From Porifericola rhodea (lineage in GTDB: Bacteria; Bacteroidota; Bacteroidia; Cytophagales; Cyclobacteriaceae): a DNA stretch of 64,000 bases. The stretch covers positions 3,302,501 through 3,366,500 of the forward strand of contig NZ_CP119421.1 in assembly GCF_030506305.1 (NCBI RefSeq), given 5' to 3'. The notes beneath the pieces are model-generated. The model ran no database searches, was not told where the DNA came from, and was given only the letters and a program-made list of their open reading frames with translations. A program made the translations under genes and the position numbers. This document shows positions 48,303-56,911 of this stretch, one piece after another (positions within the stretch are counted from its first letter, which is position 1; every line of letters starts with the position of its first letter).

Positions 48303-50321
48303 TTAATGGATATTGTTAAGTGAGCCGTTTCGTTTGTTATTAGGTATATGAATGATGAATGTGCTCCCCTCGCCAGGCTGAGATTTTAACTTAAGTTCTC
48401 CTTTCAGTTTCTGAACGGACTCCTGCACGATAAATAAGCCTAGCCCGGTTCCTTTAGCATGGTTACTGGCCCGATAAAACATATCAAAAATCTTTTTATG
48501 ATGCTTTTCATCAATTCCTAAGCCATTGTCCTTAACTGTAATCTGGGCTTCATTTTCATAGGTTACTATTTGAACTTCAATAAAAGGAAAAGGCTCTCGA
48601 GGATTGTAGTAGCGAAAAGCATTAGAAACCAGATTGTTCAGTACTATGTTGATACGATTTTTATCACTGTAAAACTCATGCTCCTGGTTTATGCTTAAGC
48701 GCTTGTCCATAAGCTCATAATTGTCAAGGTGCTGGTATAGCGAAAATACTTCTTCCGTCAGGGCCTGAAAATCTACAGGTTCACTGGCTACATCCAGGCG
48801 TGTATTGCGCGAATAATTGAGAATATCCTGTATAAAATTGTCCAGCTTGTTCAGAGATTGTTCCTGTAGGTCCAGATACTGCCTGAAACGCTCCGGATTT
48901 TCTTCCATCTTCAACACTTCAATAAGGCCAAGGGTAGAAGTTAGTGGGGCTCTGAGGTCATGCGAGGTGCGGTACACAAATACATCCAGCTCTTTATTAA
49001 GTTGTATCAACTCCGTATTCTGCTTTTGTATCGTATCATTCTGTATGGTCAGAACTTCATTGGCACGCTTAAGGTTGTAAATAGCTTGAGATACGCGCAG
49101 AGAAAGTATCAATGACTGGCAAAGGATAAAAATTAATAAACCGATAGAAATAATAAAGCCAGTAGATATAATATCGTTGGCATATAGCAAATCATTAATA
49201 AATGTAAAAAAGAATATGAGGAGGCCAAATATAAAAATTCTATAGCCGGGGATATTATGATGGTAGTTCCTCATGAGTTGATAAATCATCATAAGGCTTA
49301 TAATAATTGTTACTAGCTGATATGGAACAACTGTATAGGAGAAGGACAGGGAGTTGCTTACGAGTACAAAAAGAGAGAAAAGAAAGCCAATTATTGCACT
49401 CAGCATTACCAGCAGTCTGGGAATTAGTTTTGGGAAAAGAAGGTAGAGAAAATAAGTAAAGAGTGGGACAAATATGTAGAAGCTCAATAGTTCTAGCCTT
49501 AGCATCCACACCCAATCTGTAGGAAACAAAAATCTGATGATAGACTGTCCTGTACTAATTATACGGATAAAAATTACAAATGAAGCAAGTCCAAAAATAA
49601 GATGAGCTATATCTTCTTTTCTTAAGAAATAATATCCCAGGTGATAAAGTGCCATAATAAAAATGCTGCCTGCCAAAAAAAAATCCAAGCCTACTTCAAG
49701 TAACCACTTCCTGCGTACATCGGTAAACTTTCCCAAAACGAGAGGTGTCCAGGCCCCCCCCCTACGGAAATGAAAATTTGATACCTGCAGGTAGAGGTTG
49801 AGCTCTTCTTTTCCTTTGCTTTGTACCCTCACAAAATCTGGTGCGTACTCCGGACGAGAGCTTACTGCTGTAGTACCCACCTGGCCAGCCTGGTAAATCA
49901 GGGAGTCTTCCTGAAAGAGAGCCATGGCAGTGGATGAGGTATTAAGCATCAGGGCTAGCTCTTGAATGTCTTTGGGAAGCAATATACGCAGATGGTAAGT
50001 AGCAAAGCCCAGCCCCTTAAGTTGCTGTCCATGATAGACATAGCCATTCCAACTAGAGGGCAGGCTGATAAAATACTCGTTAGAAGAGATTTTCTCTGTT
50101 TTATCTGAAGCGTGTACCAATTGATTCCAGTAAAACGCCCACTCCCCGTTGAGCTTTACCGTGCCCTGCATTTCAAAGTTCCACGATCTTAAATCTAATA
50201 TTCCCTGCTTTGCACCAGGCGGCTGAGAGTCAAAAGGCTGACATGCTTGTAATGAGTAGAAGACTAAAAAAAGTAGAAAAAAAAACGATGATCTCTTCCT
50301 TTGTATGAAAGATATACTCAT
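48303..50321 (-). CDS. 7TMR-DISM sensor histidine kinase, orphan
   Basis: 672 residues from ATG 50321 (a TTG two codons earlier is less likely). Lipoprotein-like N-terminus (FLVFYSLQAC), an exported beta-sandwich domain (about 30-195) with LNGEWAFYWNQL, then seven membrane helices (about 205-400), a coiled coil, HisKA with YRTSHDLRAPLTSTLG (phospho-His) and HATPase with NIVLNNLVSNAFRY, VKDNGLGID and GTGLGLFIV. No response regulator gene is adjacent. The DISM domain is thought to bind carbohydrate-like ligands. Confidence 0.92.
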   Translation of the reverse strand: MSISFIQRKRSSFFFLLFLVFYSLQACQPFDSQPPGAKQGILDLRSWNFEMQGTVKLNGEWAFYWNQLVHASDKTEKISSNEYFISLPSSWNGYVYHGQQLKGLGFATYHLRILLPKDIQELALMLNTSSTAMALFQEDSLIYQAGQVGTTAVSSRPEYAPDFVRVQSKGKEELNLYLQVSNFHFRRGGAWTPLVLGKFTDVRRKWLLEVGLDFFLAGSIFIMALYHLGYYFLRKEDIAHLIFGLASFVIFIRIISTGQSIIRFLFPTDWVWMLRLELLSFYIFVPLFTYFLYLLFPKLIPRLLVMLSAIIGFLFSLFVLVSNSLSFSYTVVPYQLVTIIISLMMIYQLMRNYHHNIPGYRIFIFGLLIFFFTFINDLLYANDIISTGFIISIGLLIFILCQSLILSLRVSQAIYNLKRANEVLTIQNDTIQKQNTELIQLNKELDVFVYRTSHDLRAPLTSTLGLIEVLKMEENPERFRQYLDLQEQSLNKLDNFIQDILNYSRNTRLDVASEPVDFQALTEEVFSLYQHLDNYELMDKRLSINQEHEFYSDKNRINIVLNNLVSNAFRYYNPREPFPFIEVQIVTYENEAQITVKDNGLGIDEKHHKKIFDMFYRASNHAKGTGLGLFIVQESVQKLKGELKLKSQPGEGSTFIIHIPNNKRNGSLNNIH

Positions 50322-50327
50322 GTACAA

Positions 50328-52403: not shown

Positions 52404-52679
52404 ATGTCAGATTCACATAAAACCGAAGGTCAGGCCAAAGAGCGTCTGCAGGAAATCTACGCTAAAATTAAAGAGTTTGAGCAAAGAGCTAAGGATCTGA
52501 GGGCAGAGCTGGACGAAGAGCTAGAGGACTTAAAAGATAAAGACAGTAAGCTGTATCGTTCCTACGAAGATATTAAATACTCAAGCGCTGCTGCTTTTCA
52601 TGATATACGCCAGGGCTTTGCAAAAGCTGCGGACACCCTGCACGAAGCTATCAAAAGAGCTACTTATCATTTCAAATGA
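52404..52679 (+). CDS. Small coiled-coil protein of unknown function
   Basis: 91 residues, highly charged and helical. Residues 8-55 show a heptad-like pattern (LQEIYAKIKEFEQRAKDLRA), followed by SAAAFHDIRQGFAKAADTLHEA, a second amphipathic helix. It slightly resembles sll1863-type stress proteins, but no firm family call. It lies 57 bases before the large P-loop-like gene and, with MscS, forms a three-gene unit; an adaptor or regulator role is inferred. Confidence 0.6.
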   Translation: MSDSHKTEGQAKERLQEIYAKIKEFEQRAKDLRAELDEELEDLKDKDSKLYRSYEDIKYSSAAAFHDIRQGFAKAADTLHEAIKRATYHFK

Positions 52680-52736
52680 AGAATATAGTATCCAGAGAAA
52701 AATCTTTTCTACAGGCATGTTGCTGTAACCTCATCT

Positions 52737-55700
52737 ATGAGTAATAAAGCTACTGACGTTCAGGATAGTGCCCGCTCTCTGATACAGGACTCCGTCCTTC
52801 CTGTACTGAAGCAAAGTATCCGTTACCAGACAGAGTTTGCAGATGAGCTGTTATCGGCATTTCACGAGTTTGCCCAGACCTATACCCATGCCAGAGAAGA
52901 AGAAAACGCGTCTGTCTTTTTTGATGCCCTCTCAGACTATGCCGTAAAAAACTACCAGCTGATAGAGCATCGCTATAAGGATAATCGTCCACGGAGATTC
53001 CACGAAATACTGGAAGAGTATAGCCAGGTAAAAAAATCGTTTCTGGAATCGTTACCCGTAGTTTACGAAGAGGTACAGTTGGAGCAGCGTTTTGAAACTC
53101 AGCCTGCTGACGCTTGGAAGATTCGCTTTATCAAACAGTGGAAACGCTGGTTCCGTAGATGGAAAAATCTACCCAACCGCATCGCTAACTTTTTCAGAAA
53201 ACTGTTTCGCCGGGAGCCTAAGCCGCTCCAGCCCTGGAAGTATAAAATACCTCTTAGAAACCTTTCTGAACACTATTATCTGGAGGAGTATGCCGAAGGG
53301 CTAATTCCGGTATTTGAGAAAATCTACCGCGAGCTGGCTATCACCTCACAGCAAGCCTGGCAACTGTGCGATCGTATGCTATCTAACTTACACCTGAGCT
53401 TGCAAGAACAGACCTACGAAGACAAGGGCTGGATGAGTGCCTTGCCTTCGCTGGATACTGAAGGTTTTGAAAAACAGGTGGCAAATATCAAGGCAGAACT
53501 GCATGAGCTGGAAACAGAAATACTGGAAGACCAGGAGCAGTTGCTAGAGAAAATACATCAGCGCTTTCAGCACGATTATGAGCGTGCGGGTACCGCCGAG
53601 CTACCCTCAAGCCGTTTTAGTAATCGTAAACTACAAGCAAAGCAACAACATACCGAAAAAGCTTATCTCAACTTTGGGCAGGGCTGGCGTAATACCCTTT
53701 TTGCCCTGTACGAAGACTGGCGGATAGATGCCGAATTTAGTGTGCTAAGTCACGAATTGTTGTTTCAGCACTTTAAAGTGAGAGATGAGGCTCATCATAA
53801 AATCAGGCAAGCTGTACTTCCACAGATAAATACTGCCATGAGCGTGATACAAAACGCTCTGGAAGCTATAGAAAAATCGTCGGAAGAAGATATGGAGAGC
53901 ACATTGAATGATCAGAAGCAGTATATAGATCTGCAACTGATACGGACAATATTGCCTGCAACCATAGCTCTTCTGTATCGCCAGGCATTACCTGCCCTGA
54001 TGGAAAATGTACGACTAAAAGCTAAAGATAAGGTAGAGCAACTTCCAGAAAGAAGAGGCCTGGTTAAGACTAATGAGTACAATAGGGGCATCAAAAGCTC
54101 AGAGATTGACTTTGTTTCACCACGACAGATAGTGAGCTTTGAGTCGCTGCCCAACCTTAAAAATAAAATTGATGAGTCTGAAGAAAAAGTTAGCCAGGAA
54201 CTGGCCGCTTTACAAAAGCAGATTAACGAAGTAGGGCAGGTATCATACTTTAACCTTGACTCCGCTCTCTCAGTTTTTGAAGGAGAGCAAGAGAGTAAGG
54301 CAAAGGCTCAGAGCATTGCCAGGGAGGGGCTCCAGCGTGCATTAAAAGGGGTGGAGAGCATTACCGAAAATCTTGACCACACTTTTCATCATCTGGATAA
54401 AGATGTGCGAGCAGCGGTGCAGGCCTTTATACAGGAACTTACTGAGCTTAAAAGCAACGACTATGCCCTGGAGCTAAAGCTTAGGGTTGCCCGTGCCAAA
54501 GCCTTAGAACAAACTCGTATGCTGCAACAGCAGGCTCTGGACTATGCGAGAAACGCAGTTCCCTATACGTTACGATATATCCGCAAAAACTATGGCAGAG
54601 CCCAGCGGCAGGTAAAAGATTACCGTAAGCAGATGGGTATCTCAGAAGAGGTAGAGGTAAGCACCGAAATATCTGACTTTCTGACCGAAACAGAAAAGTC
54701 CATTCAGCAGCTACCCTATGTATATCAGCGATTGTTTAGTATCCGCCCTTTGGAAGAGCCCGTTTTTTATGAAGAGCGGGGAGCCGAAACTAAAATGATA
54801 CAGGACGCTTTCCAGAACTGGAGTAAAGGTCGTTTCGCCAGCACTGCTATCATAGGAGAGAAGGGTAGTGGTATTACCACGCTTCTCAATTTTTTTCTAA
54901 AACAGAGTAACCAGCGCAATATCAGACGCTGCGAAGTGATCAGGGCTAATACCTTCCGCCAGATTCATAGTGAAGAAGACTTGCTCAGCTATTTTAGCGG
55001 CTTTTTTCCTGATCAGAATTTCATGAGTATGGAAGATGTAGCGTACTATCTGACCAGCCGAACGCAGCCTCTTATTCTGATCTTTGAAAATCTGGAGCAC
55101 TTTTACCTTCGCAATGTGGGTGGATTTAAGTGCCTTAAAGTCTTATTTGAACTCATCTCTAAAACCAATAAACAGGTTTTCTGGCTTTGTAGCTGTACGC
55201 TATATGCCTGGAACTACCTGGACAAAACGGTTCATATATCCGACTACTTTGAGTATGAGGTACAGCTACAGGCTTTTCAAAACCAGCAGTTGAGAGAGGT
55301 AATCCTTAAAAGACACAGGGTGAGCGGTTACGCTCTGGTGTATGAGGCTGCCCGGGAAGATCGTTTTCGTAAAAAATTTGCCAAGATGAGCAAAGACGAA
55401 CAACAGCTATATCTGGAGAGAGAATACTTTAACGACCTTAACAAAATTACCAGCGGTAACTTTAGTATAGCTCAGTTGTTCTGGCTACGCTCTGCGCGCA
55501 GAGTAACCGAAGACACCATATATATAGGCTCGCTAAAAGATTATGACTTCTCCTTTGTCAAATCTATATCTCTGCAACATCTGCTCACCTTTCATCTGCT
55601 AGTACTGCACGATGGCCTTACCGAAGAGCAGTTTCGCAGACTTACAGAATATCAGATTGAGGCTAAACCTGAAGCCAAGCAGATTGGCAAAAATAGCCTT

Positions 55701-55820
55701 AGCCTGATACAATTAATGGACGATGGATTTATCACTAAAAAAGAGGAAGTGTATATTATCAACCCTTTGCTTTACCGTCAGGTAGTGAATTTGTTGAAAG
55801 CTAAAAATTTTCTGCACTGA
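52737..55820 (+). CDS. Large coiled-coil protein with degenerate P-loop NTPase domain
   Basis: 1027 residues with no signal or membrane helix. Residues 1-690 are long charged helices, with a very basic, aromatic patch at about 130-165 (KQWKRWFRRWKNLPNR) that could touch the membrane. An NTPase-like domain follows: IIGEKGSGITTLLNFF at 705-720 is a Walker A region in which the invariant Lys is Ile713 (G707...G712-I713-T714), and LILIFENLEHFY at 779-790 stands at Walker B with Glu784-Asn785 instead of Asp-Glu. The end looks like a winged-helix region. The stop overlaps the MscS start by one base. I know no named family for it. Confidence 0.75.
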   Translation: MSNKATDVQDSARSLIQDSVLPVLKQSIRYQTEFADELLSAFHEFAQTYTHAREEENASVFFDALSDYAVKNYQLIEHRYKDNRPRRFHEILEEYSQVKKSFLESLPVVYEEVQLEQRFETQPADAWKIRFIKQWKRWFRRWKNLPNRIANFFRKLFRREPKPLQPWKYKIPLRNLSEHYYLEEYAEGLIPVFEKIYRELAITSQQAWQLCDRMLSNLHLSLQEQTYEDKGWMSALPSLDTEGFEKQVANIKAELHELETEILEDQEQLLEKIHQRFQHDYERAGTAELPSSRFSNRKLQAKQQHTEKAYLNFGQGWRNTLFALYEDWRIDAEFSVLSHELLFQHFKVRDEAHHKIRQAVLPQINTAMSVIQNALEAIEKSSEEDMESTLNDQKQYIDLQLIRTILPATIALLYRQALPALMENVRLKAKDKVEQLPERRGLVKTNEYNRGIKSSEIDFVSPRQIVSFESLPNLKNKIDESEEKVSQELAALQKQINEVGQVSYFNLDSALSVFEGEQESKAKAQSIAREGLQRALKGVESITENLDHTFHHLDKDVRAAVQAFIQELTELKSNDYALELKLRVARAKALEQTRMLQQQALDYARNAVPYTLRYIRKNYGRAQRQVKDYRKQMGISEEVEVSTEISDFLTETEKSIQQLPYVYQRLFSIRPLEEPVFYEERGAETKMIQDAFQNWSKGRFASTAIIGEKGSGITTLLNFFLKQSNQRNIRRCEVIRANTFRQIHSEEDLLSYFSGFFPDQNFMSMEDVAYYLTSRTQPLILIFENLEHFYLRNVGGFKCLKVLFELISKTNKQVFWLCSCTLYAWNYLDKTVHISDYFEYEVQLQAFQNQQLREVILKRHRVSGYALVYEAAREDRFRKKFAKMSKDEQQLYLEREYFNDLNKITSGNFSIAQLFWLRSARRVTEDTIYIGSLKDYDFSFVKSISLQHLLTFHLLVLHDGLTEEQFRRLTEYQIEAKPEAKQIGKNSLSLIQLMDDGFITKKEEVYIINPLLYRQVVNLLKAKNFLH

Positions 55821-56911
55821 TGCCGCACATACTTTTCATCTGGCTACTGCTGGCAGCGCACCCCTTTCAGCTGCTACTACAAGACACGGTAGATATGAGG
55901 CTACCGCTGCCCAGTCGGCAGATTGTAAGCCTTGCTCAGGACTCCCTACAGCAAAATATGAAGGATAGTGTGCCTAGCGGTACCTCTGCTATAGATAGTG
56001 TAGGTAGTCTGCCTGTACAGATCAGGACTAATACCATCGTTATTCAGGCAGATACCATCTTGGGTAGAGAGAGGCCACTGATAGATTTGGACAAGGAGGA
56101 GGAAAGTGGAGGAGAAGAGGAGTCTACCCCTGAAGCTCTAAGGAAAATTTCTTTAGGAAAAATATTCTGGAGCTTCATCATCTTTGGCTTAGGCTATTTT
56201 ATGATCCGTTTTGCTACCCAGCTTTTAGAGTTGTTTTCAGAACGGAGCACAAACTACCGTATCACTATCAAAGGGCTGATTCCAGTAATCAGAATTTTAG
56301 GCTGGGTAGTCGTCATTTTTATAATTATTACCGGGGTAATCAGGCCAGAGATAGAGGCAGTACTTGCCTTAACAGCTTCGGTAGGTGTAGCTGTAGGTTT
56401 TGCCTCACAGGATGTACTGAAGAACATCTTTGGGGGAGTAGTTATTCTGTTGGATACTCCTTTTAAAGTGGGAGATAAAATAGAAATTGGCTCTTTTTAT
56501 GGCGAAGTGGTAGAGATTGGACTACGCTCCACGCGTATTGTTACTCCAGACGATTCTCTGGTGTCTATACCTAACGGAGAGCTGATGAATCAGTCTGTGT
56601 CCAACAGCAATGCCGGTGCGCTGGATTGCCAGGTGGTAGCCGAAATATTTTTGCCGTTGGATGTTGATACCGAGCGGGTTAGAAAAATCGCAACGGAGTC
56701 TGCCCAGACCTCCAAATACGTTTATCTTAACAAACCCATCGCTGTGCTGTTTTTTAATGAGGTAAAGGAAAGAAGGTCTTACCTCAAAATGCGTCTAAAA
56801 GCCTATGTCATGGATATTCGGTATGAGTTTGCTTTTAAAAGCGAGCTAACAGAAATTGTGATTCGTGAACTTCTCAAAGAAAATATCATCAGTCGTGATG
56901 ACTTCAAATAG
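55820..56911 (+). CDS. MscS-family mechanosensitive channel
   Basis: 363 residues: signal peptide (FIWLLLAAHPFQLLL), a low-complexity periplasmic part to about 105, membrane helices from about 112, the pore helix region LALTASVGVAVGFASQDVLKNIFGG, and the beta domain with LDTPFKVGDKIEIGSFYGEVVEIGLRSTRI split by the usual VGD turn, then an alpha/beta cytoplasmic vestibule. Such channels open on membrane tension. Its ATG overlaps the stop of the P-loop-like gene (TGATG), so the two proteins are translationally coupled and may form a gated complex (inference). Confidence 0.92.
   Translation: MPHILFIWLLLAAHPFQLLLQDTVDMRLPLPSRQIVSLAQDSLQQNMKDSVPSGTSAIDSVGSLPVQIRTNTIVIQADTILGRERPLIDLDKEEESGGEEESTPEALRKISLGKIFWSFIIFGLGYFMIRFATQLLELFSERSTNYRITIKGLIPVIRILGWVVVIFIIITGVIRPEIEAVLALTASVGVAVGFASQDVLKNIFGGVVILLDTPFKVGDKIEIGSFYGEVVEIGLRSTRIVTPDDSLVSIPNGELMNQSVSNSNAGALDCQVVAEIFLPLDVDTERVRKIATESAQTSKYVYLNKPIAVLFFNEVKERRSYLKMRLKAYVMDIRYEFAFKSELTEIVIRELLKENIISRDDFK

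Follow-up and report, generated by a model that had tools for sequence, protein, structure and literature searches.

The textbook example of a tension-gated valve is MscS, which is generally regarded as sufficient on its own; the known channels of its family that are under extra control carry that control in the same chain. In the KtrA/RCK and SUR-Kir6 systems, the state of the ion channel is controlled by a distinct protein that binds nucleotides. The locus reported here lies in a 64,000-nucleotide stretch of the Porifericola rhodea genome (contig NZ_CP119421.1, positions 3,302,501 to 3,366,500 of the forward strand; "the window"). It encodes a putative regulatory NTPase-like protein of 1027 residues (52737..55820, + strand, in window coordinates) followed directly by an MscS channel of 363 residues (55820..56911, +). 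The channel belongs with MscS, MscK and MscM (PF00924 and PF21082) but differs from them in being accompanied by a separate AAA+-type protein encoded upstream; KtrA/RCK and SUR-Kir6 offer a comparison in the manner of working, with a different fold and a different channel family.

An original prediction made from the sequence alone had described these two genes, with a preceding one for a 91-residue protein (52404..52679, +), as a three-gene unit. The open reading frames (ORFs) and the sequence agree with it on the positions and common strand of all three genes and on the one-base TGATG overlap (55818..55822), in which the TGA of the NTPase gene ends, and the ATG of the channel gene starts, at 55820. 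From the comparisons below, we propose that the NTPase-MscS pair may be an osmotic or ionic control unit in which an MscS valve has a dedicated regulator in the cytosol, a reading to which we give a probability of about 60%. Its parts come from known families; searches of the open-access PMC literature showed, among the entries listed, no paper on the joined system, either as the MscS-NTPase pair or as a permease fusion, in keeping with the earlier statement that no named system is known to join a large helical P-loop protein to an MscS channel.

Pairing of the NTPase-like protein with MscS

MscS lies directly downstream of the NTPase gene in all eight of the closest homologous loci (split into two ORFs in one of them), and this is not a matter of chance, because the whole 5.49-Mb genome holds only nine MscS matches. 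In homologous loci the two genes usually overlap slightly or are only a few bases apart. A wider set of 71 unique loci (13 + 46 + 18, less 6 duplicates, with the window excluded; the 46 are from GTDB contigs scanned with NTPase patterns) was collected by NTPase patterns or profiles, not via MscS. An MscS-type gene or a remnant of one stands directly downstream of the NTPase in 60 of the 71, counting C-terminal-domain-like pieces at loci L031 and L033, a piece at a contig end (L082) and a gene split into two ORFs, reflecting a misassembly or else a broken channel (L029, 14983-16022). The 11 loci without MscS are L032, L071, L084, L106, L107, L124, L128 and L130-L133. At L032 a 97-residue ORF with a weak C-terminal-domain match takes the place of MscS, L071 and L084 are contig ends, and L107 does have MscS, with an overlap too long for the start-codon rule used.

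The two genes also occur in the same genomes. Among 59 relatives, with at most two candidates scored per genome, the NTPase was found in 14: nine carry close homologues (E ≤ 1e-83), and in the other five the homologue is distant and belongs to a longer type; channel orthologues (E ≤ 1e-40) are present in exactly the nine relatives with close homologues and in 0 of the 50 others. In a sample of 395 genomes of the class (at most five candidates scored per genome), 26 matched the NTPase profile, seven with close full-length proteins (E ≤ 1e-230) and the rest distantly (E ≥ 1e-33), and channel orthologues (E ≤ 1e-45) were again found in exactly those seven and in 0/388 others. Four genomes (G000, G018, G046 and G048) are in both samples. 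Of the 25 non-own matches in the class search, 18 are in the 71-locus table and six more adjoin MscS (two of these being L074 and L080); the weakest, L061, by its look a MarR-type chance match, was dropped. A generic ABC or AAA match was rejected given that the profile matched so few genomes of the class, and a chance neighbourhood was rejected on the 60/71 adjacency and the exact co-occurrence in both samples.

Beyond these relatives, the two genes are also paired, in the same order, in Alphaproteobacteria, Gammaproteobacteria and one haloarchaeon. When plasmids were searched with the window channel, 88 records matched, and among the 25 matches listed five scored above 100 bits: the haloarchaeon Salinirubellus, two Novosphingobium records, Halomonas and Caulobacter. 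All five have an NTPase-module ORF directly upstream of the channel. Novosphingobium and Caulobacter were already known from the NTPase side, which makes Salinirubellus and Halomonas the only blind tests, and both were positive. A profile of the C-terminal half of the NTPase gave E values of 2.2e-27 for Novosphingobium, 4.6e-14 for Caulobacter, 9.5e-13 for Salinirubellus and 2.8e-9 for Halomonas (search space set to 5000), and shuffled copies gave no match. The NTPase of Novosphingobium PP1Y is 79.7% identical to the first Novosphingobium one. In the Halomonas plasmid (L185:4271-4891) only the C-terminal part of the module is open, the earlier parts seemingly being in another frame, and the gene looks broken. 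In the Caulobacter plasmid (L175:7292-9135) two consecutive MscS genes stand behind the NTPase, the second being of a different channel type. A Paracoccus record (87 bits) was found to have neither the NTPase nor the channel signature described below. On these plasmids the NTPase is annotated as "AAA family ATPase", "ATP-binding protein" or "hypothetical protein."

Association with salt transporters

The main reason for placing the unit in ion and water balance is that versions of the NTPase are fused to salt permeases or lie near Na+/H+ exchangers, and for the same reason the NTPase is probably an unrecognised controller of salt and water. At ten loci the module is the C-terminal portion of a fusion protein of about 1640 to 1735 residues whose N-terminal portion is a permease like the cation-chloride cotransporters (CCC; SLC12, TIGR00930). 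Two of these fusions were tested against TIGR00930, with E values of 4.6e-116 and 3.9e-119 and scores of 389 and 399 bits, far below the naming cut-off of 953; PF00324 was above its cut-off in the three fusions tested against it (L031, L032 and L034). The helical domain of the window NTPase is homologous to the middle of the CCC-fused proteins (hhalign probability 98.7%, E 4.6e-16, 494 columns, with eight of the ten proteins used). The cyanobacterial permeases that are the best plasmid matches cover residues 7-717 only, and known cotransporters are not known to carry the helical-NTPase tail. A short MscS of 217 to 253 residues follows the fused protein in eight of the ten loci, L031 and L032 being different. 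At L033 the N-terminus is off the contig.

Na+/H+ exchangers of one subfamily are present in the examined flanks, which differ in length between loci, of 16 of the 71. Six lie 56 to 118 nt upstream of the NTPase and four follow MscS; 12 of the 16 were confirmed as PF00999 and four were recognised only by a custom profile.

Other forms of the module also have membrane parts. At L106 (489-5123) it follows, in the same chain, a membrane domain of 10 segments that by eye is like a cation/proton antiporter, an assignment that is suggestive only: the domain matched nothing in Pfam, NCBIfam, the PDB sequences or an exchanger alignment, and a profile of the PF00999 proteins of the window genome gave E 0.0023 with a large composition bias (search space 5000), or 0.15 with the neighbouring exchangers added. 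Two further proteins, one deltaproteobacterial (L107:3994-7092) and one from Novosphingobium (L174:3610-6942), have a start resembling a signal peptide, a long helical stretch outside the membrane, membrane segments and finally the NTPase; by eye, they resemble the additional portion of an MscK-type channel, here on a chain of its own. The smallest forms (L098, L099 and L101), from Campylobacterales/Helicobacteraceae metagenome-assembled genomes and Cecembia, are NTPase-only proteins of 397 to 411 residues, without the helical domain and followed by MscS. Two neighbours of the NTPase were noted in passing, an encapsulin-type gene (PF04454) just upstream at L099 and, at L027 (14987-15277), a small two-segment membrane protein, LapA-type-like by eye, 36 nt upstream.

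Domain structure of the NTPase-like protein

The 1027-residue protein was originally predicted to be soluble, with long helices, an NTPase-like domain and a degenerate P-loop, and each of these features is borne out. A hydropathy scan found no hydrophobic segment. An AlphaFold model from a 41-row alignment has a mean pLDDT of 85.8 and divides into a helical domain (residues 1-636; 52737..54644) and an AAA+ domain with a winged helix (residues 657-1027; 54705..55817). Profile and structure searches, suggested with the original prediction as a check, gave no family above cut-off in Pfam, NCBIfam or PADLOC and an AAA+ fold of the ORC/Cdc6-TnsC type for residues 657-1027. Among sub-threshold matches were NACHT and AAA_16, the latter at 22.6 bits with a cut-off of 32.6; relatives pass AAA_22 (cut-off 27) with 37.4 bits for L107, 32.2 for L101 and 31.7 for Novosphingobium.

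In the modelled C-terminal part, the top Foldseek match is 1w5t (E 1.9e-7) and the best Z score is 16.1, with 7jgr_G over 247 residues, and the TnsC structure 7mbw gives 14.6; the alignments with ORC2 (1w5t) and TnsC (7mbw) extend to residue 1027. The fold is thus shared with ORC/Cdc6, TnsC and the STAND NTPases, but here the partner is an ion channel or permease, a helical domain of 640 residues precedes the AAA+ part, and the Walker A lysine is mostly lost in the window's group. The helical domain, modelled alone, has a pLDDT of 91.7 and a pTM of 0.79 and consists of long helices. Residues 126-162 (53112..53222) form a basic amphipathic hairpin predicted to contact the membrane: residues 127-165 have a net charge of +13 (median +9, range 0 to +15, across the 41 rows), and the hydrophobic moments of the hairpin are at about the 98th percentile of the protein.

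The P-loop of the window protein, GEKGSGITT, departs from the intact Walker A form GxxxxGK[ST] in that I713 replaces the lysine (degenerate Walker A GEKGSGIT, residues 707-714; 54855..54878). The lysine is gone in 32 of the 41 rows of the window's NTPase group and present in nine. The Walker B motif, ILIFEN (residues 780-785; 55074..55091), is also degenerate, with E at position 784 in 38 of 41 rows and D or N at position 785 in 21 and 17, respectively. The archaeal protein and the three NTPase-only proteins also lack the Walker A lysine. It is kept in all ten CCC-fused proteins, all four 800-residue proteins, two proteins of 961 to 1007 residues that have a short MscS, the six genomes of an exceptional family discussed below, and the L106, L107, Novosphingobium and Caulobacter proteins. 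On this distribution, the window's lineage seems to be a branch of an NTPase family that has degenerated.

The MscS channel and a candidate contact site

The third gene had been called an MscS channel, and the profiles leave it there, with PF00924 at 77.9 bits (cut-off 20.2; beta domain, residues 198-264, 56411..56611) and PF21082 at 23.2 bits (cut-off 21). The solved chains nearest to it by profile are MscS 7dlu and MscK 7uw5. The C-terminal cytosolic domain of the channel contains the sequence AYVMDIRYEFAF (56801..56836), an instance of the signature AY[VI]xDxRxExxF that is found in 40 of 43 partner channels, these being the intact channels that adjoin the NTPase in the window's group. The signature occurs in 0 of 23 control MscS orthologues (23 of 24 kept, L139 being left out for an internal stop), in 0 of 7 paralogues (seven of the eight other MscS matches of the genome) and in 0 of the 10 short MscS proteins.

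Two further observations concern the same domain. Pieces resembling it adjoin the NTPase where a full channel is absent, with 123 residues at L031 (E 0.0065) and 114 residues at L033 (E 5.5e-7). At matched beta-domain identity, the C-terminal domain is slightly more conserved in partner than in control MscS proteins, with identities of 0.58 and 0.52, 0.62 and 0.56, and 0.67 and 0.63, respectively. The remnants, the conservation and the signature together hint that the C-terminal cytosolic domain of the channel is the site at which the NTPase docks.

The sll1863-family gene and the flanks

The first gene of the supposed three-gene unit had been described as encoding a coiled coil, which is right as far as it goes, and the protein also passes the profile of the sll1863 stress family (NF052504, 44.5 bits with a cut-off of 35, residues 8-91). 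Orthologues of its gene lie upstream of the NTPase in only three of the eight closest loci, those of both congeners and of one more genome, and the protein was found in none but the closest relatives. The pairing of NTPase and MscS is real, and the notion of a three-gene unit was dropped in favour of a pair with an optional member. In Synechocystis, sll1863, the namesake of the family, shares the top four salt-induced places with two MscS proteins (PMC8670252). The gene fits the salt theme without being a core part of the unit.

The remaining flanks in the window are ordinary, with genes for a polyprenyl synthetase, a rhomboid protein, a methyltransferase, a MoCF protein and a serine dehydratase, several of which are kept in two congeners. 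On the opposite strand (48303-50327, -) is a gene for a 7TMR-DISM sensor histidine kinase, and a similarly sized ORF occupies the same place in the two congeners.

Proposed mechanism and alternatives

In the mechanism that we propose, the regulator would sit on the inner membrane by means of its basic amphipathic hairpin, and its AAA+/winged-helix half would bind the channel's cytosolic cage by way of the C-terminal domain there. From there it may read the state of the cytoplasm, whether ionic strength, crowding or nucleotide, and set when the channel is allowed to open, such that turgor is released on down-shock and ions do not leak at high salt. Because the P-loop lysine is lost in the window's lineage, the regulator there is probably a nucleotide sensor or a scaffold and no more; ATP hydrolysis may persist in the versions from proteobacteria and in those fused to transporters.

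Several points weigh against this reading. The proposed complex, gating and salt role all derive from sequence comparison. No exchanger is present in the examined flanks of 55 of the 71 loci, and the exchanger of the window genome is unlinked to the pair, being the one member of the subfamily among six PF00999 genes. Inactivation of sll1862/sll1863 in Synechocystis gave no salt-sensitive phenotype, according to an unpublished result quoted in PMC8670252. Six genomes of one family (L124, L128 and L130-L133) carry the module without MscS, as a protein of about 1120 residues where complete, with an intact Walker A motif and in largely shared surroundings; at L132 only 240 nt of room is available. 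The original prediction had named homologues away from mscS as the outcome that would tell against it, and had proposed counting the neighbours; it largely survives that count, with 60 of 71 loci adjacent and exact co-occurrence in 9 of 59 and 7 of 395 genomes, leaving the six genomes of this family. As for the contact site, the excess in C-terminal-domain conservation is small (about 5 to 6 identity points) and comes from pairs that are not independent, and the signature was defined on the partner channels after inspecting them. Independent support for the signature therefore comes from channels elsewhere: it is complete in the two Novosphingobium records, L107 and Salinirubellus, and five of its seven fixed positions are present in Halomonas and in the Caulobacter channel that overlaps the NTPase, where controls have two or three. 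The Caulobacter locus is no clean control, because this channel reaches only 5/7 and the second MscS there 4/7.

Instead of gating the channel and the transporters, the NTPase might position them, as a factor for assembly or clustering or as a membrane scaffold, with dynamin-like membrane remodelling or repair as one example. The long helical domain with its amphipathic hairpin and the degenerate P-loop of the window's lineage would suit such a role, and bacterial dynamin stalks are among the structural neighbours, residues 318-579 giving weak stalk-like matches to LeoA (Z 9.7 over 233 residues) and 5oxf (Z 9.6 over 244 residues). These values, however, fall under the noise level that the tool states for helical bundles, and with residues 1-636 Foldseek gave nothing at E ≤ 0.001 and the Z search only matches at the helical-bundle level, results that leave room for unlisted families. 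The NTPase part is AAA+, and the NTPase-only proteins pair with MscS even though they have no helical domain. We consider a scaffold role unlikely, though it deserves to be kept in mind.

Of the roles originally suggested for the locus, osmotic or ionic control is now the most likely, given the permease fusions and the exchangers, and abortive defence has fared poorly. As an anti-phage pair, a STAND-like sensor would open an MscS effector pore on infection, an idea for which the weak STAND/NACHT-like matches, the patchy distribution and the presence on some plasmids can be cited, along with weak PADLOC matches of the 91-residue protein to LeoBC (E 4.2e-4), LeoA (0.0038) and SspH (0.0097) of the sort that coiled coils give. 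Against this, neither the NTPase nor the channel had a PADLOC match at E ≤ 1; in a search of the 41 NTPases against PADLOC at E ≤ 1e-3, mad8 matched three and two families matched one each, with none for the window NTPase; and no phage record matched at E ≤ 1e-3. A phage or defence element was rejected on these searches, and the ordinary flanks, several of them kept in congeners, and the fusion to salt permeases make a defensive role still harder to credit; we think it highly improbable. It is similarly hard to believe that the two genes are mere neighbours transcribed together, each with a job of its own in one stress response. Adjacency itself is no proof of contact, and the sll1863 gene shows that a stress gene in such a place can be optional; against this, the pairing and gene order are kept across phyla into a haloarchaeon, both samples show exact co-occurrence, and pieces resembling the C-terminal domain are still present next to the NTPase.

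Implications

For the time being we file the pair, read as an MscS valve with a cytosolic regulator, under regulated MscS channels; the chance that it forms a separate class is substantial. A wider and more tentative proposal, again drawn from sequence comparison, is that one AAA+-type module, found in several bacterial phyla and one haloarchaeon, has been plugged into unrelated transport proteins, namely MscS channels, CCC-like permeases and, by position, Na+/H+ exchangers, and gates them from the cytosol through the C-terminal domain of MscS, so that a single sensor of cytoplasmic state would set both the valve and salt transport; such a machine would belong to a class that has no name. The pairing suggests a role, open to experimental test, for a large protein whose annotations are only generic. 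If the regulatory reading is true, part of the MscS family would be under cytosolic control, and the pair would provide a direct handle on how cells keep turgor release coordinated with the transport of K+, Na+ and Cl-.

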